Part shown: positions 6,964 to 29,440 of the stretch, one piece after another
Position numbering within the stretch: position 1 is the stretch's first letter
Layout: every line of letters starts with the position of its first letter
Virus record (IMG/VR): IMGVR_UViG_3300035681_000090
Span: 1 to 31,378 of that record
Length of the DNA: 31,378 bases
Reading direction: 5' to 3' (one strand)
Source of the DNA: a virus
The notes under the pieces: generated by a model
Told to the model about the DNA's origin: nothing
Database searches by the model: none
Seen by the model: the letters and a program-made list of their open reading frames with translations, nothing else
Program-made: the position numbers and the translations under genes

Positions 6964-7815
6964 TTAATAACGACGAATCTGAGGCTGCATCATTTGACCT
7001 GCAGGACTACCCGGCTGCATCTGCTGCATCTGTTGCGGCATTTGCGCTTGATTAAACCCAGATTGCATAACGTTAAATCCCTGCGTCATTGCCGCCATTT
7101 GTTCCGGTGTCATTCGATTTGGTTGAAAACCCACTAACGAACGAGCATCAGGACGACCAAACTGATCATACTGCAGCGGCTGTGTATATGATTCTGGATT
7201 TGTTCCCTGCGGTGGCATTGTAATTTGCGGATTCATAAACTGTGGTTGCTGCTGCGCGTACTTATCCTGCGCCTGCGCATACAGATTACGTGTAGCTTCA
7301 TTAACTCCACGCGAGATCATATTGTTACCCGGCATCTGTGGAATGTTGCCAGTGCGGATCTGATTCATAATGTACGCATCACGACCAAGTTGCTGTCCCA
7401 TGTTTTGCATATTTTGGCCGCCTTTTGGCATAGGTGGCACGTTAGGTGGTATCTGCAACATATCTTGTCTAGCACCTGGAATAGAACCAGCCTGCCCGTA
7501 AATGTTTTCTAAATTGCCATAAGGCTGTGCCATACCACCGCGCTGTGGCTGATTTGGCAACGCACCGCCCTGCTGATTTACAAGCGCACCACTTGCATCA
7601 CGATAGACGCCAGGAGAAAGCCTTGTTAGCTGTTGTGGCTGCGGCTGTGGCTGCGGCTGTGGCTGTGGTTGTGGCTGTGATGACTGAGTTGGAGGGAATT
7701 TGGGCCGTCCAGGTCCACCCTGTACTGGCATTGTTGTTGCCCGTGGATCTCTTGCAAGTGCGCTTGCTAATCCACGACCTCGCCCTGTCAGTCTTTGCAT
7801 TTCATATCGTGCCAT
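6964..7815 (-). CDS. putative virion protein, Pro/Gln/Met-rich
   Basis: The 283-residue protein is largely low-complexity. It has a short basic start (RLTGRGRGL), a Pro-Gln dipeptide tract near residues 47-62, and long P/Q/N/M/G-rich stretches to a C terminus of QPQIRRY. No domain is recognisable. It lies between a 420-residue virion protein and the gp10-like tail protein, so it is most likely a structural or internal protein, perhaps a disordered linker or core component. SD GGAG lies 9 nt before the ATG. Low complexity makes any homology call unreliable. Confidence 0.65.
   Translation of the reverse strand: MARYEMQRLTGRGRGLASALARDPRATTMPVQGGPGRPKFPPTQSSQPQPQPQPQPQPQPQQLTRLSPGVYRDASGALVNQQGGALPNQPQRGGMAQPYGNLENIYGQAGSIPGARQDMLQIPPNVPPMPKGGQNMQNMGQQLGRDAYIMNQIRTGNIPQMPGNNMISRGVNEATRNLYAQAQDKYAQQQPQFMNPQITMPPQGTNPESYTQPLQYDQFGRPDARSLVGFQPNRMTPEQMAAMTQGFNVMQSGFNQAQMPQQMQQMQPGSPAGQMMQPQIRRY
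7637..7678 (-). repeat. hexanucleotide repeat (GGCTGY)7 encoding Pro-Gln repeats
   Basis: Seven consecutive 6-bp units of GGCTGC, GGCTGT or GGTTGT (plus-strand view) encode alternating Gln-Pro on the leftward strand. This is a coding microsatellite that could vary in length between related phages. Confidence 0.85.
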
Positions 7816-7818
7816 AAG

Positions 7819-9081
7819 TTATAACTCCGGTATTTCCTCTGGTTGTTCTGGTTGTATTAACGGTTGTTGTGGGTTAGCTGCGTACGCTAGTTCTAACGCT
7901 TGCCGCAAAGTTTTTGCCTGCTGAATTTTTCCAGTATCAGTTCGATACAATCCAGGTGACAAACGTAGAACTTCGCCTTGCTTCGGACGCTCTAACTTGG
8001 TTAATGCTTGAACGTTTTTAGCATCAATGCCTGCTTGTTTTGCAAACGGACTATTGCCAAGCATGGCAGCGATGTTTGCATCAACTTCCTTTTCGCTCGT
8101 AGCGTTACTGATGGCTGCATTAACTAACATTCCTGTAAATTGCTCGGTATGATAATCTTCTGGCGCGCCTTCATAAATCCGCTTAATCATTGGATCAAGT
8201 TTGCCCGTTGCATAATTTGAAAGCGGGTTTTGAGAATCTCCATCCCAAGGATTGCGTTTCGTTCCATCGATGTTTGTAAAACGATGCTTACCATCAAGCC
8301 CGATATCAAACTTAGAACCATCGGCAAGTGTTACTTGATACTTGTCATCAGCTACCCCGCTATCTTTCAGGTTGCTTCTAAAACTATCGCGGATTTGTTG
8401 TTGTTGACTTTTTCCACTTGTAAGACGTGATCCGATTGATCGACCGCCCATGAGTCGCATTCCAAGATTGAGAGTGCCTAGTCCCGGAAAGTGATTTGCT
8501 ACTTGGTTGATATAATCTTCACGGGTTCCACGACCGCGCACGATATCCTTCATGCCGGTTTCCCATGCGTTACTTGCCGCGATAGCAGCGCCGGCTACGA
8601 TTGCTGCAGGCCATAATACTGCTCCCGCTCCTGCTGCAGCACCACCGCCCGCAGCACCACCACCTGTAGCAACGCCTCCCGTAGCACCGGCTGCAGTACC
8701 AGTACCGACGGCACCACTACCCATGACTGCACCACCGCCAGCCGTAGCCATGCTACCACTAGCGCCAGCACCGCCTGCTAAAGTAGAACCGAGTACGGCT
8801 TGACTGCCGGCTGTAGCTGCAGTGCCACCAAGTTGCGAATATAAATAACCAGCGCCTGCCAAGCCAGCTAATTGCCCTCCAGTCTGTGCTAATGCAGCAT
8901 TTGACTCTGCGCTCTGTTGCTCCTGTCGTAACTGCTCTGGGCTCTTAGGAGGTCCATACGCTTGCTGTAAAGCGGCATAAGCATCTTGACTGCGCATACC
9001 CTGCGAGATAAGCGCCATGTAATACTGTTGCGGCGTCATGCCTTTTGCGGGTGGTGGTGCTTGCATTGGTTGCTGTGCCAT
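7819..9081 (-). CDS. putative internal virion protein with Gly/Ala-rich hydrophobic centre
   Basis: The product is about 420 residues. I take the ATG at 9081, which overlaps the upstream stop as TGATG, over a GTG three codons earlier. The N terminus is Q/P-rich. Residues roughly 65-170 are extremely Gly/Ala-rich with glycine repeats and a hydrophobic helix (LWPAAIVAGAAIAA). A globular-looking half follows (TLADGSKFDIGLDGKHRF, YATGKLDPMIKRIYEG). Ala/Gly-rich hydrophobic segments of this kind are common in podoviral ejection proteins that cross the cell envelope, but I cannot assign a named family. It sits between the adaptor-like and gp10-like genes. Confidence 0.7.
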   Translation of the reverse strand: MAQQPMQAPPPAKGMTPQQYYMALISQGMRSQDAYAALQQAYGPPKSPEQLRQEQQSAESNAALAQTGGQLAGLAGAGYLYSQLGGTAATAGSQAVLGSTLAGGAGASGSMATAGGGAVMGSGAVGTGTAAGATGGVATGGGAAGGGAAAGAGAVLWPAAIVAGAAIAASNAWETGMKDIVRGRGTREDYINQVANHFPGLGTLNLGMRLMGGRSIGSRLTSGKSQQQQIRDSFRSNLKDSGVADDKYQVTLADGSKFDIGLDGKHRFTNIDGTKRNPWDGDSQNPLSNYATGKLDPMIKRIYEGAPEDYHTEQFTGMLVNAAISNATSEKEVDANIAAMLGNSPFAKQAGIDAKNVQALTKLERPKQGEVLRLSPGLYRTDTGKIQQAKTLRQALELAYAANPQQPLIQPEQPEEIPEL

Positions 9082-12063: not shown

Positions 12064-12549
12064 TTAGTTCACTGTGAGGTAGCCAGTTGATTTTAGTTCA
12101 ACAGTGCCAGCGCCGGTAAGGGTCGTAAGACCTACCACGTTAGCAATCTTAGTTGTTGAAGCATCATCAGCTACGCCAGCGGTTGCAGTCGTATTAAGGT
12201 TAGCATCTGCAGCATACGATGCAGCGCACTTACCCTTAATACCTGTTCCTACTCCACCGCCACCTACGCCGCCAACCCATACCCAAAGGTACTCGTTATC
12301 GGCTGCAGCGACTTGCGCTACACCGATCTGAAGGTTGTTAGAACCAGCGTTTGTGGTTGTAAGTTCTACAGCTTGTCCATCGTCAGATATTTTGACGAAC
12401 GCATACTGTGCAAGCGCACCATCTGCCTGAACAAACAAAAACTCACCCTCCGGGCAGCTACCAACATCAGTAACTTTTGCCGGAAGCGGAATGGTAGTTC
12501 CATCCCATACTTTTTTGTAATTAACACCGAATGATCCAGAACGTGACAT
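12064..12549 (-). CDS. putative capsid decoration / head protein
   Basis: The 161-residue, beta-rich protein starts just after the major capsid gene with a strong SD (AGGAGG, 8 nt upstream). The N-terminal part (PEGEFLFVQADGALAQYAFVKI) and the middle (IGVAQVAAADNEYLWVWVGG) resemble small head-decoration proteins encoded beside capsid genes. The C-terminal segment is a T/A/G-rich beta pattern (CAASYAADANLNTTATAGVADD). Position and fold style support a structural role on the head. I do not have a specific family name. A stable hairpin and then another small gene follow. Confidence 0.65.
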   Translation of the reverse strand: MSRSGSFGVNYKKVWDGTTIPLPAKVTDVGSCPEGEFLFVQADGALAQYAFVKISDDGQAVELTTTNAGSNNLQIGVAQVAAADNEYLWVWVGGVGGGGVGTGIKGKCAASYAADANLNTTATAGVADDASTTKIANVVGLTTLTGAGTVELKSTGYLTVN

Positions 12550-12567
12550 AGTTCAATCCTCCTACAG

Positions 12568-13524
12568 TTAAGCGTAAATAACAGCTTGAAGTGCCGGGGC
12601 TGAACAACAGAGGTTTCCTTCAACGATAATAACCGTGAAGAAAGCATCCTGATCAATCGGACGGTTCATCTCTGGAGCGAGGGGCTTAAAGTCAGCACCA
12701 CGTACCATGTCAAAAGTCCAATACTTTGTGTTAAGCAATCGGCAAGAATTGGTCTCAAGTACGCTTGAACCAAATCCACCATCAAACACAAAATCGCATC
12801 CGTCATAGCTGAGAGCGCGGAAACCAGCGGTAGCCTTCTTTACAGGAAGCTGAATGCGCTGAATTGCCGTGAGCGAACTATGGAGGTACTTCCAAGCAGT
12901 GCGATCCATCAAACCGAGGTCTGGGGTTTCGTCACCACGAGTGATCTGCGAAATAGTGTCCGTTACAGTCTCCTGAACGTTTGAAGCAGAGAGAGTCGTA
13001 TTAACAGCTAGGTTACGTGCCCAGGTGTTAGAAGTACGATCAATCTGTCCATACGTTCCAGATGACGGTGAAGTTGATACAGCCTTCTTAATACCGTCAA
13101 ACTCAAGTCCACCGCTTCCAGTCCCATCACCGCGAAGTGAGGTAGAAACAGTATTCTTAAGGCGAGCGATTGCCGCGTTCATCTTCATCTCAGCGAGATC
13201 AAGAAGCTGTGCCTGATCGCGGTTAGCGCGTCGGTCACGGCCTGCAATAGCTACAGGCTCGTAGCACTGCTTAATTGCGAATCGAAATGCCGTAGCATCA
13301 TCGATTGAATCAAGGTTAAAAGATGAGAATCCCGAATAGAAACCACCTACAGCCGAATCATTATACATAATTGGCTTGCGTAGTTCGTATCCACCGGAAA
13401 ACTTACGAATGAGGCCCTGATCGTCAAGCGATTTCAGGAGCGGATTGTGATGCAAAACCTCATCTGCGATCTGATCGCTCTGATCGAAGAGGGTTGCAAC
13501 GATTGCTTCTTCAAGATTAGCCAT
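12568..13524 (-). CDS. major capsid protein
   Basis: The 318-residue protein lies directly after the scaffold gene, with 46 bp between them. N-terminal MANLEEAIVATLFDQSDQI is followed by a charged region, a long alpha segment around RRANRDQAQLLDLAEMKMNAA (spine-helix-like) and a glycine loop (LRGDGTGSGG). The beta-rich C terminus has WTFDMVRGADFKPLAP and AFFTVIIVEGNLCCSAPALQAV. The order scaffold-capsid, the length and the spine-helix/P-domain pattern fit the HK97-fold major capsid proteins of uncultured podoviruses. The SD is AGGAT, within a leader that also holds a weak GTTATC/GATAAC inverted repeat. It is expected to be the most abundant virion protein. Confidence 0.85.
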   Translation of the reverse strand: MANLEEAIVATLFDQSDQIADEVLHHNPLLKSLDDQGLIRKFSGGYELRKPIMYNDSAVGGFYSGFSSFNLDSIDDATAFRFAIKQCYEPVAIAGRDRRANRDQAQLLDLAEMKMNAAIARLKNTVSTSLRGDGTGSGGLEFDGIKKAVSTSPSSGTYGQIDRTSNTWARNLAVNTTLSASNVQETVTDTISQITRGDETPDLGLMDRTAWKYLHSSLTAIQRIQLPVKKATAGFRALSYDGCDFVFDGGFGSSVLETNSCRLLNTKYWTFDMVRGADFKPLAPEMNRPIDQDAFFTVIIVEGNLCCSAPALQAVIYA

Positions 13525-13570
13525 TGTTGTTATCCTATAAAGTTAAGATAACCCCGGCTAAATGAAGCAG

Positions 13571-14638
13571 CTAATCGCCGGTCATTCTAGCCCGTAGGTT
13601 ATCACGTATGTTTTTAGCTTGTACTCTGGGAGTCCCCGAACCGGCGGAGCCAGTGATCGAACGCGAAGCGGCTTTAGCTTTTTGCACACTTGCGGATGTT
13701 TGTTCTACCTGCGCCTTTGCAGTAATCGCATTGGCGATACTGGAAAAGGTCGGATTGCCGGCTACTACATAGTTGTAAGCGGTTTCGAGGATTTGCTCTG
13801 GGCCGCTGTACTTGCCGGTCTGCGTTAATGCCGCCACAATCGGTGCCATTTCAGCCTCTAACTGCGCTGCTGTCTCGGCATCTTTGAATAACGGTTTATT
13901 CGCTACAAAAGATTCTACGACCCGCTCATTATAATAAGCAACGGCTTTTTGTTCCTGTTGCTGCTGCATTGCGGCAATCTTCTCTTCGGCAATGCGTTCT
14001 GCATCAGCCATTGTGAGGTATTGCGCTGGCTGCTGCTGTGGATAGTAACCCTGCTGATCATAACCTTGAAACAGTTGTTCAGGCTTAATGCCGTAAGCGT
14101 CTAACCATTCCAAAGCCGTTTCAACCGGGTTCGTCATCATTGCCTTGTCCCAAGCAATAGAGCGCCTGGTCAGGTCTGCAATGCTGATACCTTCTTTTGC
14201 GTAGTCGTTTTCGTACTGTTTGACTGCATCATAAATGCTAGAAGTTTGCTTTTTAAGTTCTTCAACTTCCACCATTTTACGCTGATAATCGGAGCGTGTT
14301 TCATACGCCCTACGGTTCATGTACTGCTGCAAAACATGCGCGTTATCAGGCGTAGGATTAAGAAAAGCCTCCTTTTCGGCTTTGTTCATGTCAGCGGGTG
14401 GTACAAGCGGAATTTTCTCAACCGCTGGCGTTGTTTGCTGCGTTTGTTGCTCTGTAACAGATTGAGGTGCTTTAGCTACCGCATCAGGATCTTCTTTAGT
14501 CTCTACAACAATCGGATCATCTTCTGCCTTAAAACTGCGTTTGAGAGCGTCACGAATGCTTACGGGTTCTGATTGCCGCTCAACAGTAACTTCGGTATCC
14601 GCTGCTGTCGTTCCTGTTTCTTGCTCTACATTATCCAT
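13571..14638 (-). CDS. capsid assembly scaffolding protein
   Basis: The 355-residue protein is acidic, highly charged and helical. The N terminus has SIRDALKRSFKAEDDP. The middle has a Q/E-rich coiled region (AERIAEEKIAAMQQQQEQKA). The C terminus is basic (KNIRDNLRARMTGD), which in phage scaffolds is the helix-loop-helix that binds capsid subunits. It sits immediately upstream of the major capsid gene, where scaffolds of T7- and P22-like phages lie. The ATG overlaps the preceding gene by 8 bp. It is expected to fill the procapsid and leave during maturation. No protease domain is seen. Confidence 0.85.
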   Translation of the reverse strand: MDNVEQETGTTAADTEVTVERQSEPVSIRDALKRSFKAEDDPIVVETKEDPDAVAKAPQSVTEQQTQQTTPAVEKIPLVPPADMNKAEKEAFLNPTPDNAHVLQQYMNRRAYETRSDYQRKMVEVEELKKQTSSIYDAVKQYENDYAKEGISIADLTRRSIAWDKAMMTNPVETALEWLDAYGIKPEQLFQGYDQQGYYPQQQPAQYLTMADAERIAEEKIAAMQQQQEQKAVAYYNERVVESFVANKPLFKDAETAAQLEAEMAPIVAALTQTGKYSGPEQILETAYNYVVAGNPTFSSIANAITAKAQVEQTSASVQKAKAASRSITGSAGSGTPRVQAKNIRDNLRARMTGD

Positions 14639-14945
14639 TTAGTCGCTCCCTAATTTGTTGCATTACCCTAGACACTAATTCTTTTTGCCGACCAGGATCT
14701 GACTTTTGTGGGTCGTATCCGCGCTCGTAAGCATCCCCAACTTCTATTGCGCCAGCGGCTTTATAAGCCTCTCGTAGCTTTCGCTTGCTTGTGTAAATTT
14801 CCTTAGAATTAAGAGGGTTTCTAACGGGTGCCATCTCGTCGGTAATGATGTAATGCGTCTCTGGAACGCGCACCTGCACATTTTCAATCGGCACTACCTT
14901 CTTTTGCACTTTGCAGTATTGATACAGTTTGTATTTAGTCGTCAT
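14631..14945 (-). CDS. conserved small phage protein of the portal-scaffold interval
   Basis: The 104-residue basic protein shows TSKRKLREAYKAAGAIEVGDAYE near residues 52-75. It matches a common motif of small phage proteins found between portal and scaffold genes (a 'Y-T-S-K..R...K..G..EVG' pattern). The preceding ITDEMAPVRNPLNSKE also fits (these proteins often read 'ISD.M.P..H...G..Y.SK'). Function is unknown. It overlaps its upstream neighbour by 11 bp and the scaffold by 8 bp, so it is translationally coupled within the head module. Confidence 0.75.
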   Translation of the reverse strand: MTTKYKLYQYCKVQKKVVPIENVQVRVPETHYIITDEMAPVRNPLNSKEIYTSKRKLREAYKAAGAIEVGDAYERGYDPQKSDPGRQKELVSRVMQQIRERLNG

Positions 14946-15252
14946 CGTCTAGTGCCAATAGCATTAAGACCATTTTGATTCGCTTTTTGCGTTCTTCGCC
15001 AGTTAGTTCCCCTGGTTTAGCCCTAGCATGCAATGCTGCTTTTAGCTTATCAGCTAAATTCTCTCTGTCTACAGTCGTCGGTAGTTCTATCTCTTTTTGG
15101 CGACTCTTAAGGATTTGGGCTGCTACTTCTTCCTCAAGCAGATCGTCATGCCGTTTTCGTCGCTTGGCGTAACGATCCAAGATATCACTTGTATCAGGCG
15201 TTACAGGGGTTCCACCGTACTGCTTGGGATTAAGGAGCAGTATTAGACTCAT
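14935..15252 (-). CDS. small helical head-module protein of unknown function
   Basis: The 105-residue protein has a hydrophobic start (MSLILLLNPKQYGGTP) followed by a charged helical body with KRRKRHDDLLEEEVAAQIL. The C terminus (GEERKKRIKMVLMLLALDDDD) ends in an acidic tail. No named family is recognised. The ATGA overlap with the collar gene and the overlap with the next gene put it in the same translation chain. It could be a chaperone or minor virion component; the sequence gives no further clue. Confidence 0.65.
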   Translation of the reverse strand: MSLILLLNPKQYGGTPVTPDTSDILDRYAKRRKRHDDLLEEEVAAQILKSRQKEIELPTTVDRENLADKLKAALHARAKPGELTGEERKKRIKMVLMLLALDDDD

Positions 15253-15824
15253 TGGTATTTGATAATGTAATTAACGACCAAGTACGGAGGATTGTTTCCC
15301 CCTGTTGCGCCGGGAGTAGTGCTGCCGCTTGTCATTGCTGCGTTACCGTCAACACCCCCCGTGACTAATCCGATACGACCGCTAATCGTCGGGGCTGTAT
15401 AACTACCGGCTGAGGTATCGCCTTTTGGTGCGGTAGTTGTGACTGATCCTCCCCACGCGCTGTAGCCGCTTGGCGAGTTGGTAACAGCTAAATCTGCTCC
15501 AGTTCCCATACCGTGATAATGCGCTGGCACACTATGGGTATGGGCGGCTGAGGTATGCGTATGGTCTATTGTTCCCCCTGTACCCGCAAGCGCATTGCCC
15601 GTCCCTGACGCCGCTTTACCGAGAGGGAATCGCTGCCGTAAATCTGGTAAGCTAAAACTACTTGCATCCACGCTGCCATAAGTTGTGCCAATGATGGCAA
15701 ACAGTTTTGCATACGTTGTCCTCGAAAGACTTGTGCCGTCACAGATTAAAAACGAATCGGGCGCGGTGCCGGAGTACCACAACAAACCAGCGCCAATAGG
15801 TAACTCGCCACCAAAAACAGGCAT
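15249..15824 (-). CDS. phage tail collar domain protein
   Basis: The 191-residue protein opens IGAGLLWYSGTAPDSFLICDGTSLSRTTYAKLF with IGTTYGS..SSFSLPDLRQRFPLG. This is the tail-collar domain (Phage_Tail_Collar, PF07484), found in short tail fibres and receptor-binding tips. A His/Thr-rich segment (DHTHTSAAHTHSVPAHYHG) probably coordinates metal in a trimer, as in T4 gp12-type tips. The C terminus ends in NPPYLVVNYIIKYQ, also typical. Its partner is the preceding fibre-like protein. Together they form an adhesion pair placed unusually between portal and scaffold genes. The start shares its base with the upstream stop codon. Confidence 0.9.
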   Translation of the reverse strand: MPVFGGELPIGAGLLWYSGTAPDSFLICDGTSLSRTTYAKLFAIIGTTYGSVDASSFSLPDLRQRFPLGKAASGTGNALAGTGGTIDHTHTSAAHTHSVPAHYHGMGTGADLAVTNSPSGYSAWGGSVTTTAPKGDTSAGSYTAPTISGRIGLVTGGVDGNAAMTSGSTTPGATGGNNPPYLVVNYIIKYQ

Positions 15825-17572
15825 TAGCTTACCTCAGTAATTCGCATTGCTCCCGTTGGAGTATTCGCCCAAATGCCATCAATAATGCCGGTGTATACGG
15901 GAAATGGTAGTTCTAGCGTCTGCGCTGGCAACAACTTGTAACTAAAACTAGTTGCACTAGCTGTCGCACCAAACTTAACGTATACGGCAGTGTCAGCATC
16001 GTTATAAAGTATCGCTTGGCGACGCGAAGCGTTGGATGCCAAAAGTGTTGTGTTGGAAGCGGCTGCGGTAACATTGCTTAACGTGCTGGATGAATACGTT
16101 GCATTCGTAACGGTCCAGGTCCCGCTTTGCGTCGCTGCTATTGTACCATCAACCGTGATACTTCCACCGTTATCACTAACAGGCACCGCCGAAGTAAATG
16201 GATTGCCCTGACTTGCCAGGGTAACATTAGGCAACGTTAAAACATCAACATCTCCGATATTATTACCGCCAGCCGGCAAGGATGCACTGATAGTAACAGC
16301 GCCCGTGTTACATGCCGTTACCTTTCCGTTCAGACTACTAAGCGTAGCTTCTGCTGCAGCGCCAGTTGGTAAGCTGACAGTGCCGCTTATATTATTGATA
16401 TTCCAAGTACCGCTCTGAGTAACGGGAATAGCACTTTGATCGCTGGCAATAACTACCGGCAAACTATTTGCCATTGTTGCTTGACCAACAACACCCGTAA
16501 TGTCGCCGATTGCCGTAATGAGAGAACCAGAAGGATTAACTTTTACGTTATAATACGTGCCGCCACCACTAGCAGATCGTCCGGCTATTACTGAACGTGT
16601 TACGTTAGCAAGGGTATAATCAGTTAGGGTAGAAGTTATAGGTAGGTAATCACTTGTTGTACCTGCCGCCCAACACGCTGTGTAAATTGATAAGTTTGTT
16701 GCTCCACCGCCATTTTTTTTGACATCTAAAGTCATTGGCAGATTTGGCGTTTCAATTGACGGGGCTAATTGACTATTGGGTATTCGAATGGTGTGAAACG
16801 TTATCCACTTTCCATCAGGACTAAATACTTCAAAAATGAAAGAAGCTGATCCCAACCATGCAAACCTGATACGGTACAAATTGCTATATGTAAGGTTAAT
16901 TGCTTCTGGTGTACCTGCTCGCGTAAAAATTGATCCCGCAGAACCATCTAACGGATCTCCATTCCATGATGCGCGTGCAATAGTAGTATTTGCACCACCA
17001 CTACGAAGTGTTACACCGAAAGACGTGTCTTCATACCCGATAAAAGCGCCATTGTTAGTATCGTACAGTCCAATACGTTGATAGCTATTAGCGATTCCTG
17101 CAGTAAATGCAGCGGTAAAAAATGCGTATTCTTCATGAGCGGGACGATACGAACTATTGTAAACGCTAACACCTTTAGCGCCGCCGTTTGTGTTACTGCC
17201 CGTTTGATATCTGGCATGGCCGCCAGTAATAGAAGCAGATCCGCCCGAACTAGTTGTATTGGTTATAAGGTTAGTGTCGAACGAATCAAAAAAACTTAAT
17301 TCAATTTCGTTATTTCTACGCCCGGTAACTGCAACACCAAGGATGTCAGCACTAACGATATTGTTGACATTTAGACCACTTGCTAACTCGTTTTTGACTG
17401 CGTTTAGAGTTGTTTCAGTAGCAAAATCTGGAACGGTTAAATCTTCTGTACCAGCCCCACCGTAATCAATAGCAACAACCTGAACCTGCTCGCCGCTCTT
17501 GTCTATCGTGCGTACAGGAATATCAGTATTGACACTGGTAGGCGAGTTACTAACCGTTACGTTGTCTGACAC
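15824..17572 (-). CDS. fibre-like virion protein with VTQSGTW repeats
   Basis: The 582-residue protein starts at a GTG 2 bp after the portal stop, with GAGGAT as SD. It is beta-rich and low in charge. A jelly-roll-like region near 90-300 (FDSFDTNLITNTTSSGGSA ... WITFHTIRIP) is followed by S/G/T-rich repeats, VTQSGTWNI and ATQSGTWTV. The terminal domain (SNASRRQAILYNDADTAVYV and FPVYTGIIDGIW) often occurs at the end of phage neck and fibre proteins. It is followed at once by the collar protein. It is likely a virion appendage. No enzymatic motif was found. Confidence 0.7.
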   Translation of the reverse strand: MSDNVTVSNSPTSVNTDIPVRTIDKSGEQVQVVAIDYGGAGTEDLTVPDFATETTLNAVKNELASGLNVNNIVSADILGVAVTGRRNNEIELSFFDSFDTNLITNTTSSGGSASITGGHARYQTGSNTNGGAKGVSVYNSSYRPAHEEYAFFTAAFTAGIANSYQRIGLYDTNNGAFIGYEDTSFGVTLRSGGANTTIARASWNGDPLDGSAGSIFTRAGTPEAINLTYSNLYRIRFAWLGSASFIFEVFSPDGKWITFHTIRIPNSQLAPSIETPNLPMTLDVKKNGGGATNLSIYTACWAAGTTSDYLPITSTLTDYTLANVTRSVIAGRSASGGGTYYNVKVNPSGSLITAIGDITGVVGQATMANSLPVVIASDQSAIPVTQSGTWNINNISGTVSLPTGAAAEATLSSLNGKVTACNTGAVTISASLPAGGNNIGDVDVLTLPNVTLASQGNPFTSAVPVSDNGGSITVDGTIAATQSGTWTVTNATYSSSTLSNVTAAASNTTLLASNASRRQAILYNDADTAVYVKFGATASATSFSYKLLPAQTLELPFPVYTGIIDGIWANTPTGAMRITEVS

Positions 17573-25085: not shown

Positions 25086-25280
25086 ATGAGCAACGTAAGA
25101 CAATCAACCAACTATCTTATCGAACTAGCAGAAAACGGCGTAATTACGTGGGAGGCTATAGCGTTAGCGGCACTGCGATATATGTCGGAGGATGACATAG
25201 CCGATATGGCACATGATTACGGATGGGAAGAAGAAGAGGAAGAAGAAGAGGAAGAAGAAGAGGAGGCGGCAAGCATATGA
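25086..25280 (+). CDS. small acidic early protein with poly-Glu tail
   Basis: The 64-residue protein starts at ATG 25,086 with SD AGGGGA. The helical N terminus (RQSTNYLIELAENGVITWEAIALAALRYMSEDDIADMAHDYG) resembles small phage proteins that share the 'MSEDDI..MA...G' ending. Thirteen consecutive Glu follow, encoded by an exact 12-bp tandem repeat, then AASI. It overlaps the next tiny gene by 4 bp (ATGA). The strongly acidic tail could mimic DNA or bind a basic partner. This is inference. Confidence 0.7.
   Translation: MSNVRQSTNYLIELAENGVITWEAIALAALRYMSEDDIADMAHDYGWEEEEEEEEEEEEEAASI
25227..25262 (+). repeat. three exact 12-bp tandem repeats (GAAGAAGAAGAG)
   Basis: Three perfect copies sit head to tail inside the preceding gene, encoding twelve Glu with period three and four. 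The tract can expand or contract by four residues through slippage. Confidence 0.9.
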
Positions 25281-25375
25281 CACCCACAACCCGCGAATGT
25301 ATCGAAGATGCTATCGGCCTGCTAGTGCTAGTAGTCCTAGCCTACCCCGCATTGATCCTCGTGTTTGCATTGTAA
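25277..25375 (+). CDS. 32-residue single-pass membrane peptide
   Basis: The 32-residue peptide starts at an ATG that overlaps the previous stop (ATGA) with AGGAGG 10 nt upstream. Residues 1-12 (MTPTTRECIEDA) are polar. Residues 13-32 (IGLLVLVVLAYPALILVFAL) are a single hydrophobic helix with a central proline, ending at the stop. This is a typical small phage membrane protein, too short for most gene callers. Function is unknown. Other small membrane peptides of phages affect host envelope or lysis, but nothing here shows that. Confidence 0.65.
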   Translation: MTPTTRECIEDAIGLLVLVVLAYPALILVFAL

Positions 25376-27399: not shown

Positions 27400-27475
27400 T
27401 GAGGCGTAGTTCAGTTGGTAGAACAGGCGACTGTTAATCGCCATGTCGTAGGTTCGATCCCTACCGCCTCAGCCA
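27400..27475 (+). tRNA. tRNA-Asn (anticodon GTT), CCA encoded
   Basis: A complete cloverleaf is visible. The acceptor TGAGGCG/CGCCTCA has discriminator G and an encoded CCA. The D arm is GTTC/GAAC, the anticodon stem GGCGA/TCGCC has loop CTGTTAA (anticodon GTT at 27,433-27,435), and the T arm GTAGG/CCTAC has loop TTCGATC. All stems pair perfectly. It lies in the early operon seven bases after a protein gene, so it is probably processed from that transcript. Confidence 0.95.
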
Positions 27476-27477
27476 AT

Positions 27478-27512
27478 AAAAAACCCACCGATAGTATGAG
27501 GCTATCGATGGG
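27478..27512 (-). terminator. strong leftward intrinsic terminator beside the tRNA
   Basis: On the leftward strand an 11-bp stem (CCCATCGATAG with CTATCGGTGGG, one G-U pair) and a 7-nt loop are followed by six T. Read rightward the same hairpin has a C-A mismatch and no U-tract. It therefore ends a leftward transcript, although no leftward gene is called nearby. Confidence 0.65.
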
Positions 27513-27542
27513 CAAGTCCCGTTGACAAGACGGGGGAGACAC

Positions 27543-27908
27543 ATGAGAAAAATATATCACAAGAAATGCAAATCACCAACACAGCTAAGTAGCCCAACAG
27601 TATTGTGCACCATTGAGGTGCAAGACAACCGATGCTGTGACTCAAGCAGATCAGAATACGTCTTGTGCATCATTGAGATGCAACCCTACAGCATTCAAAC
27701 TCGAACTGATCATATTAAACCCGTAGGGTTTAATTTCAATAACAGAAGAAATTGGCAATGCAAGAGCATTACAGATGCGATGCATTGCGGGAAACAACAG
27801 AGTGAGCGAAGCGAACGGATAGGGGGGTGTTTTGGGGTCAGGGGTATTAGGGGGGAGAATTGGGAGTGTGTCAAGTTAATTTTTTGTTATGAGGGATATA
27901 TACAATGA
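27543..27908 (+). CDS. doubtful rightward ORF over the structured region
   Basis: The 121-codon frame has an excellent SD (GGGGGAG) before the ATG and an ATGA overlap with the next gene, which favours translation. Against it, the product is odd. It has ten cysteines without spacing of a known zinc domain, and two near-repeats VLCTIEVQ and VLCIIEMQ that correspond to RNA hairpins. The 3' end is G-run-rich. I recognise no family. It may be an accidental frame in RNA-coding sequence. Confidence 0.3.
   Translation: MRKIYHKKCKSPTQLSSPTVLCTIEVQDNRCCDSSRSEYVLCIIEMQPYSIQTRTDHIKPVGFNFNNRRNWQCKSITDAMHCGKQQSERSERIGGCFGVRGIRGENWECVKLIFCYEGYIQ
27606..27682. repeat. two covarying hairpin repeats, 60 bp apart
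   Basis: The 21-nt units TTGTGCACCATTGAGGTGCAA and TTGTGCATCATTGAGATGCAA (written here as motif forms) each form a 6-bp stem with the same ATTGA loop. Their only two differences sit opposite each other in the stem (C-G versus T-A). The change is compensatory, which argues for selection on structure. Confidence 0.7.
27714..27734. other. perfect 9-bp stem with 3-nt loop
   Basis: ATTAAACCC-GTA-GGGTTTAAT is perfectly self-complementary. It could be a processing site, a transcription signal or a protein site. The following bases are only weakly T-rich, so terminator function is doubtful. Confidence 0.6.
27822..27864 (+). other. G-quadruplex-like run cluster
   Basis: Five G runs (6, 4, 4, 6 and 3) lie within 43 bp, with loops of 3-6 nt, meeting the usual four-G3 quadruplex pattern. 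It overlaps the -10 of the leftward promoter candidate and lies just before the helicase-loader-like gene. Confidence 0.6.
27844..27874 (-). promoter_or_regulatory. leftward promoter candidate (consensus -35)
   Basis: A perfect TTGACA (plus-strand TGTCAA at 27,869-27,874) is preceded by an A/T tract. TAATAC lies 19 bp downstream (27,844-27,849) and CCTAAT at 17 bp. The -10 is weak and the spacing long, so activity is uncertain. Predicted start is near 27,837. Confidence 0.35.
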
Positions 27909-28432
27909 CTGATGAACAGGTCCGACAGATATTCAAGGTGTTAGCTGCTGAGTTTGGGAACAAAGTCTTGTTCAGTAGGGATCGGTATAAGGTATGGCAG
28001 ATGGTCCTACATCATGCCTCTTACGACGAAGTACAAGCCGCCGTAATCGCGCTGTTGGGCGAAAATAGGCAGTTCCCTCCTACGGTAGGCGAAGTCAATC
28101 AAGCGGTTTTGACGGCTCGTGCTGGTTTTAAAGAAGATTGGGGCAAGTTGTGGGAGCGGGTCATGATAGCCGCACAAAGAAGTACCTACTATGCCGACGA
28201 AGAGGCTAAAAAACTACCACCAGCGGCATTGGCAGCTGTTGGTGGTGTTGTAGGGCTTAAAGAATTAGCGGCTTGCGACCCTGACAAAATAGCCATTGTC
28301 CGCGCTCAATTTCGGCAGCGTTTGGAAAGCAAGCAAGTGATGGACAGAGGCAACGCAAACCAAGAGAATGTGCAGGTGTTAATCGATAACTTAATGACAA
28401 AAAGGATTGGTCATGTTCAAGAAAAAGAGTAG
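27905..28432 (+). CDS. replicative helicase loader/inhibitor-like protein (G39P-type)
   Basis: The 175-residue protein has SD GAGGGA before the ATG. MTDEQVRQIFKVLAAEFG and VWQMVLHHASYDEVQAAVIALLGENRQFPPTVGEVNQAV follow the pattern of the SPP1 G39P-like N-terminal domain and its phage relatives ('W...L....Y..V..Al..l.....FPP..geI'). These bring the replicative helicase to the origin. The C-terminal part is helical (ERVMIAAQRSTYYADEE; ALAAVGGVVGLKEL). It would work at an origin, perhaps one of the structured regions beside it. The next gene overlaps its end. Confidence 0.75.
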   Translation: MTDEQVRQIFKVLAAEFGNKVLFSRDRYKVWQMVLHHASYDEVQAAVIALLGENRQFPPTVGEVNQAVLTARAGFKEDWGKLWERVMIAAQRSTYYADEEAKKLPPAALAAVGGVVGLKELAACDPDKIAIVRAQFRQRLESKQVMDRGNANQENVQVLIDNLMTKRIGHVQEKE

Positions 28433-29355: not shown

Positions 29356-29440
29356 AGGTAAGGAAGTTTTCTACGCATCCGAAAACAAGGGTAACATTAA
29401 AGGTGTTACCAAAAAAAAAAAGGACACTGCTTCTGAGTGA
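29291..29440 (+). CDS. 49-residue conserved basic phage protein
   Basis: The 49-residue protein begins MPLTKKGLKIRQAMMKYYGKDKGKEVFYASENKGNIKGV, the pattern of a very common small phage protein. A strong GGAGGAG lies just before its ATG at 29,291, which fixes this start. It is too short for the usual length cut-offs, and the longer frame upstream is not supported. Near the end an A11 run encodes KKKK. Function is unknown. It is a reliable marker of tailed-phage gene clusters. Confidence 0.8.
   Translation: MPLTKKGLKIRQAMMKYYGKDKGKEVFYASENKGNIKGVTKKKKDTASE

Follow-up and report, generated by a model that had tools for sequence, protein, structure and literature searches.

A candidate leftward non-coding transcription unit upstream of a helicase loader gene in an uncultured phage

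Introduction

What occupies the interval between a tRNA-Asn gene and a replicative helicase loader gene in an uncultured phage? The phage is represented by IMG/VR virus record IMGVR_UViG_3300035681_000090, analysed here over its whole length (31,378 nt, positions 1–31,378) and referred to below as the window. Its structural genes (TerL, portal, major head protein) run leftward, and from about 24.5 kb a rightward early module carries RecT, two small ORFs, the tRNA-Asn, the interval in question, the loader, a RusA/PDDEXK-type nuclease and others. An earlier note, made from the letters of this DNA, had proposed that the interval is a leftward gene for a structured RNA, lying beside a phage tRNA and new of its kind. 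The claim of novelty was too strong, since GOLLD and ROOL are structured phage RNAs that lie beside tRNAs, GOLLD members often exceeding 800 nt (PMC12286853), and the OOP RNA of phage lambda is a 77-nt self-terminating leftward RNA at the phage replication region (PMC3349717). Transcription from lambda pO runs against the rightward early transcript and has an influence on the initiation of replication (PMC3985674).

Results

Setting of the interval

The tRNA-Asn(GTT) gene (27,400–27,475, plus strand) was identified by both ARAGORN and Rfam. The loader gene (27,905–28,432, plus strand) is assigned as G39P-like from matches to phrog_2289, helicase loader (E 1.2e-5), and to PF11417 (E 1.7e-4, just above its cut-off). 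The loader protein was not found in a search of cultured phages, a scan of bacterial genomes gave no relative, and no O-like gene was found in the window contig. At the DNA level, a search of plasmids returned nothing, and among the matches listed from cultured phages all were to the tRNA. The GC-skew minimum of the window, at 25.1 kb, falls in the same place as the switch in gene direction and is uninformative. Close to the point where the two modules diverge lies a low-complexity GAAGAAGAG-type repeat (25,215–25,285), which gives rise to a glutamate run ending a small rightward ORF. Further along, a rightward gene at 29,437–30,045 matches phrog_3704, annotated as a ferredoxin and auxiliary metabolic gene; it has no Pfam hit.

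Signals that bracket the interval

Examination of the two ends of the interval revealed the candidate leftward start and stop signals that had been described earlier. Within the loader leader, a consensus −35 hexamer, TTGACA, occupies 27,874–27,869 and is preceded by an A/T-rich, UP-element-like tract at 27,876–27,895 (minus strand). The hexamer belongs to a bipartite promoter-like element, CTTGACA-N13-CCCCCC-TAATAC-CCC, at 27,841–27,875 (minus strand), in which the −10-like TAATAC lies at 27,849–27,844 with C runs on either side. A standard sigma-70 −10 (TATAAT-like) at 16–18 nt from TTGACA is absent and a promoter scan reports no promoter, because the −10-like block stands at 19 nt and has only three of the six consensus bases; CCTAAT, at 17 nt, has four of six.

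At the other end, adjoining the tRNA gene, lies a leftward intrinsic terminator (27,478–27,513, minus strand), with its hairpin at 27,513–27,483, a stem of 11–12 pairs, a loop of 7 and a T6 tail. The T run follows the hairpin only in the leftward direction. A scan of both strands of the window, which required a hairpin energy of −12 kcal/mol or better with T5 behind it, returned this one site. From these signals we infer the start of a predicted leftward non-coding RNA of about 360 nt, at 27,478–27,837 on the minus strand.

Coding potential

The absence of a leftward ORF over some 360 nt, as noted previously, is confirmed in substance: the leftward ORFs of the interval start with TTG and do not exceed 54 aa, and none of those of 47–54 aa is intact in a relative, L010, that is 89% identical. 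The rightward ORF antisense to the RNA (27,543–27,908, plus strand) had been called doubtful, and it is not conserved. It is broken by indels relative to L010, it has no start in L021–L023, which lack the ATG, and its pN/pS between the window and L010 is 0.75 compared with 0.23 for the loader gene. A different rightward ORF, of 64 aa, is found in L028–L030, with a pN/pS of 0.5–0.8.

Relatives carrying the loader

Relatives were found by scanning with the RecT and loader proteins, and L134, which is related to L038, was recovered by the element pattern scan described below; the IMG/VR contigs compared are partial, and L002 and L003 are near-identical. Amino acid identity of the loader is 66% for L010/L013, 54–55% for L021–L023, 49–55% for L024–L030 and L038, and 44–49% for L043 and L044. 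In the relatives whose contigs extend far enough, a common plan is evident upstream of the loader gene, comprising an A-run and hairpin (the leftward terminator), a GGAGA box, 250–350 nt of variable sequence and plus-strand G runs followed by TGTCAA, the complement of the leftward TTGACA. Outside L010/L013, identity to the window is only 43–63% over the 430 nt that precede the loader. TTGACA is nevertheless unchanged in each loader-bearing relative whose sequence extends to it, and the predicted leftward terminators lie 291–409 nt from it, with stem sequences that are unrelated from lineage to lineage. The persistence of both signals around a changed interior, in every loader-bearing relative with enough sequence, supports the proposal of a leftward terminated non-coding unit. 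By these comparisons, the predicted unit is conserved but its content mostly is not.

The tRNA at 27,400–27,475 is indeed the neighbour that had been reported. However, the unit stands without an adjacent tRNA in L021–L023, L043 and L044, and we conclude that this neighbour is incidental.

L008 differs in arrangement. At 7300–8210 its tRNA-Asn and leftward terminator are kept, and a leftward lambda-O-like initiator gene, running toward the same tRNA-side terminator, replaces the non-coding unit; the promoter-like element is absent there. In the same record (G011), the TerL gene at 12,369–15,947 consists of three matching pieces in a 1208-aa open frame, as if there were two in-frame insertions (inteins?).

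DnaA boxes (TTATCCACA), mostly spaced by 11 bp, occur five times in L044, upstream of the leftward terminator, twice in L028–L030, inside the unit, and three times in L067; their presence suggests host DnaA-dependent origins in these phages. In the window, no such box was found at a distance of 3 kb or less from the start of the loader gene.

RNA folding and covariation

The interval had been described as dense with stems, some of them covarying, and both observations are supported. The leftward 360 nt has a predicted folding energy of −113.5 kcal/mol compared with −84.3 ± 4.6 kcal/mol for shuffled sequences (z −6.3), and none of 100 shuffles was as good. With the terminator left out, z is −4.6 for the left strand and −1.6 for the right strand; the rightward RNA also folds above chance in several lineages. 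A search of the interval against Rfam, at gathering and at relaxed thresholds, gave only tRNAs, with a tRNA the only match above threshold, plus sub-threshold noise; the predicted RNA thus has no Rfam family.

The local stems, all on the minus strand, begin with hairpin 1, GCAAUGCAUCGCAUC...GCAUUGC (27,755–27,788), which lies in the conserved 5′ part and in which an inner U-A pair becomes G-C in L022/L023. It is followed by AUUAAACCC-UAC-GGGUUUAAU (27,714–27,734), with two double compensatory changes between the window and L010; by TGCATC-N5-GATGCA (27,666–27,682), with one such change and a loop that goes from 5 to 6 in L010; and by TGCACC-N5-GGTGCA (27,606–27,622), whose stem is invariant between the window and L010 and whose loop is 5 here and 6 in L021–L023. 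Before the terminator, beside a GTCTCC/GGAGAC box, CCCGU-N7-ACGGG (27,518–27,534) has one double compensatory change, and the terminator itself has four, together with two leftward G-U changes. The palindromes were also considered as NtrC-type enhancer sites (TGCAYC; TGCACC-N5-GGTGCA), an idea that was dropped because the half-site spacing varies, being 5 in the window and 6 in L010's second copy and in L021–L023. An RpoH-like promoter and a rolling-circle nick site were considered and found no support.

The window and L010 RNAs differ by 46 substitutions. Using the structure predicted from the window alone, we counted 8 compensatory pairs against 0.9 expected from random placement (P<0.0005); four of these lie outside the terminator (P=0.002), and this is the only comparison in which covariation there reaches significance. 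A set of seven local helices was picked by eye after inspection of the folds and stems, and in these 49 of 49 pairs are kept, with 8 double and two one-sided changes, whereas partners slid by 1–3 columns as a control pair in only about one-third of cells. The excess of covariation is equal on the two strands. Both one-sided changes convert U-A to U-G in the leftward RNA and would be A-C mismatches in a rightward one. These two pairs are, besides the T run, the main strand-specific evidence in the sequence, and a counter-example exists: the terminator stem of L021–L023 has a leftward C-A mismatch that would be G-U if read rightward.

Over the first 87 alignment columns, identity to four relatives is 87–93%, compared with 57–70% in the loader coding sequence. 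For the L021–L023 lineage the values are 87–91% and 57–59%, from which it follows that part of the predicted RNA gene is more constrained than the adjacent protein gene. Between the window and L021 there is no excess of compensatory changes, and in L028–L030 such changes fall almost only in the terminator. No fixed structure common to the distant lineages was found in this analysis, in which covariation is drawn from few independent sequences. The description of the interval as a structured RNA is supported by the covarying stems of the window and L010, and the overall fold is kept only among close relatives. As the global fold is lost at L021 and beyond, the shape of the RNA may not matter.

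The bipartite element in other viruses and in bacteria

Written leftward, the element reads (C)TTGACA, 11–15 nt, CCCC(C)(C/T), TAA(T/A/C/G)A(A)(T/C), CCCC. A pattern derived from the shared block matched 102 stretches of viral contigs, and these, with other loci, gave 35 clusters, unrelated in their flanks, after similar flanks were merged (loci L005, L021–L159). The A+T content in the 35 cluster representatives is 64–65% over the 40 nt that precede TTGACA and 52–57% further away, in keeping with the A/T-rich tract in the window. When GGGGGATTATTAAGGGGG was searched alone, 32 stretches were found, some of them related to one another, and 23 of the 32 carry GTCAA at the expected distance, where about 1 in 100 would by chance; the element is therefore not an artefact of requiring TGTCAA.

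In 40 whole records, the largest holding the element being of 143 kb, the element is present in exactly one copy in 37 and is missing from L007, L008 and L009. Two of these three, L007 (25.8 kb) and L009 (26.4 kb), are incomplete contigs, and L010, which has the element and comes from the same sample as L009, may be the continuation of L009. In L008 (35 kb), even a relaxed form of the element is absent. Six named phages that have a related TerL or scaffold protein likewise lack it.

In bacterial and archaeal genomes the element is nearly absent. Tightened by one base, the pattern matched six sites in 257 Gb of such sequence; these and the viral numbers are raw counts, not scaled to the size of the collections. 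Three of the six (L160, L163 and L164, Rhodobacteraceae) lie 189 nt upstream of rpsM, the gene for ribosomal protein S13, and point into it, which suggests a ribosomal-type promoter. Like the phage element, the rpsM sites have TTGACA, a C-rich spacer, a TAA-type −10 and CCCC behind it, oriented into the transcribed gene; unlike it, they serve a host gene and have a spacer to the −10-like block of 17 nt rather than 18–20. The likeness is one of architecture only. It indicates that this architecture exists where a host promoter is expected, in a direction that corresponds to leftward in window coordinates.

The neighbours of the element are varied. They include replication and recombination genes, namely a DnaC-like loader (L062), a primase (L153) and an Erf recombinase (L120), as well as TerS genes (L073, L091, L129; also L005, whose gene resembles the TerS of the window), TerL genes, and unknown genes in either orientation. 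In L142 the element is directed at three tRNA genes. In L055 six tandem tRNA genes (Ile, Ser, Leu, Gln, Arg, Thr) lie to its right, 95–716 nt away. The neighbour in L137/L141 appears loader-like by eye and has no PHROG match, and hence is not claimed as a loader. Enrichment of DnaA boxes around the element over all clusters is weak and comes mostly from one cluster. The element is possibly a promoter with lineage-specific products, or possibly an origin-linked start of transcription.

Discussion

We consider it probable that the minus strand at 27,837–27,478 forms a leftward transcription unit complete in itself and working like lambda tO-oop-pO. That the interval is transcribed at all seems very likely, and a role in the control of the replication module is put forward tentatively. 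The evidence, from sequence and comparison, consists of the two signals and their invariance, the non-coding content, the covarying hairpins and the position of the unit. The promoter reading is supported by the A/T-rich upstream sequence, the rpsM look-alike in the same orientation and the element aimed at tRNA genes in L142. The link to replication is supported by the adjacent loader, the exchange for an O-like initiator in L008 and the DnaA boxes near the unit in L028–L030, L043 and L044. Elsewhere the element stands beside terminase and other genes, so that a replication role may not be general.

In the mechanism that we envisage, the promoter-like element in the loader leader would start a leftward RNA of about 360 nt, which would fold into a series of hairpins and end at the intrinsic terminator just before tRNA-Asn. 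Leftward transcription would meet the rightward early operon (recT–tRNA-Asn–loader) head-on, and by analogy with lambda the converging transcription, possibly with the antisense RNA as well, may tune rightward transcription and the initiation of replication. The terminator would prevent the leftward RNA from running antisense into tRNA-Asn and recT.

The predicted signals share with OOP a leftward start just upstream of a replication gene, opposite the early operon, and self-termination, here at a predicted intrinsic terminator; as in lambda, a short leftward RNA in the replication region would converge with the rightward early transcript. The differences are that OOP is 77 nt and the predicted RNA about 360 nt, that no sequence relation is seen, that the promoter is of another type, and that the unit adjoins a G39P-like loader, with no O-like gene found in the contig and no lysogeny gene in the interval. 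OOP is antisense to a lysogeny regulator (cII), whereas the strand opposite the present unit holds no conserved gene, and for this reason we do not file the RNA as a member or homologue of the oop family. With GOLLD and ROOL it shares being phage-encoded, structured and beside a tRNA gene, and it differs from them in having no Rfam match and a tRNA neighbour that is not conserved.

The main rival is an origin of replication acting at the level of DNA. The interval would then be chiefly a DNA element used by the loader (iteron-like palindromes and G runs, with DnaA boxes or A/T-rich repeats in some lineages), and transcription would open or prime it, leaving the RNA a by-product without function. 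We regard this as a serious possibility, though not the one that we favour. It accords with the loader lying next to the interval, with the DnaA boxes 11 bp apart in L028–L030, the five in L044 and the three in the unrelated L067, with the single copy of the element per genome and its absence from L008, which has an O-like initiator, and with an interval whose content changes fast while its signals stay. However, the region in the window has no DnaA box, and few clusters have such boxes close to the element. Moreover, compensatory changes in hairpins whose loops vary between 5 and 6 nt fit an RNA better than a protein-bound DNA palindrome, and the GC-skew minimum lies elsewhere, at 25.1 kb, though it coincides there with the change of gene direction.

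It is improbable that the hairpins act rightward, in a 5′ leader of the loader mRNA or around a small protein encoded behind the GGAGA box. This box, which is Shine-Dalgarno-like, is present in all lineages, an ORF of 26–121 aa follows it in the window, L010, L028–L030, L043 and L044, and the covariation excess does not distinguish the strands. On the other hand, the ORFs are unrelated between lineages, absent in L021–L023 and evolving at pN/pS values of 0.5–0.8; the tRNA-side hairpin has its T run leftward only, and the one-sided changes between the window and L010 fit leftward G-U pairs.

A packaging site (cos/pac), in which the element would be recognised by the terminase, is very improbable. 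The element is indeed single-copy and adjoins TerS or TerL in several phages, including L005 of the window's own group, but its position relative to TerS shifts between near relatives and the contigs run through it in the window, L023, L025 and L044. The idea was dropped because L008 keeps a terminase, with a TerL 78% identical to that of the window, and has no element in its 35 kb. Finally, TTGACA occurs four times on the minus strand of the window and 11 times on both strands together, yet a chance pairing of a −35 match with a terminator 360 nt away is scarcely credible when both signals are retained in diverged relatives and the terminator is the only strong one in the contig.

Returning to the proposed leftward transcription unit, the signals for its start and stop have been kept more strictly than most of the sequence between them, which, if the unit is transcribed, would suggest that it is the act of convergent transcription that counts. 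A wider proposal, more speculative and on balance rather unlikely to hold as it stands, is that many unrelated lytic phages share the bipartite element as a control element, virus-specific, present in single copy and previously unrecognised, which starts a phage RNA or marks a transcription-dependent origin important to the cycle, the 360-nt RNA of the window being one lineage's product.

If transcribed, the unit described here would add one more family to the non-coding RNAs located at replication genes of phages. With the bipartite element as a signature, such units can be searched for in metagenomic phages that have no cultured relatives, and the element makes testable the question of why unrelated phages would each retain this promoter-like site in one copy.
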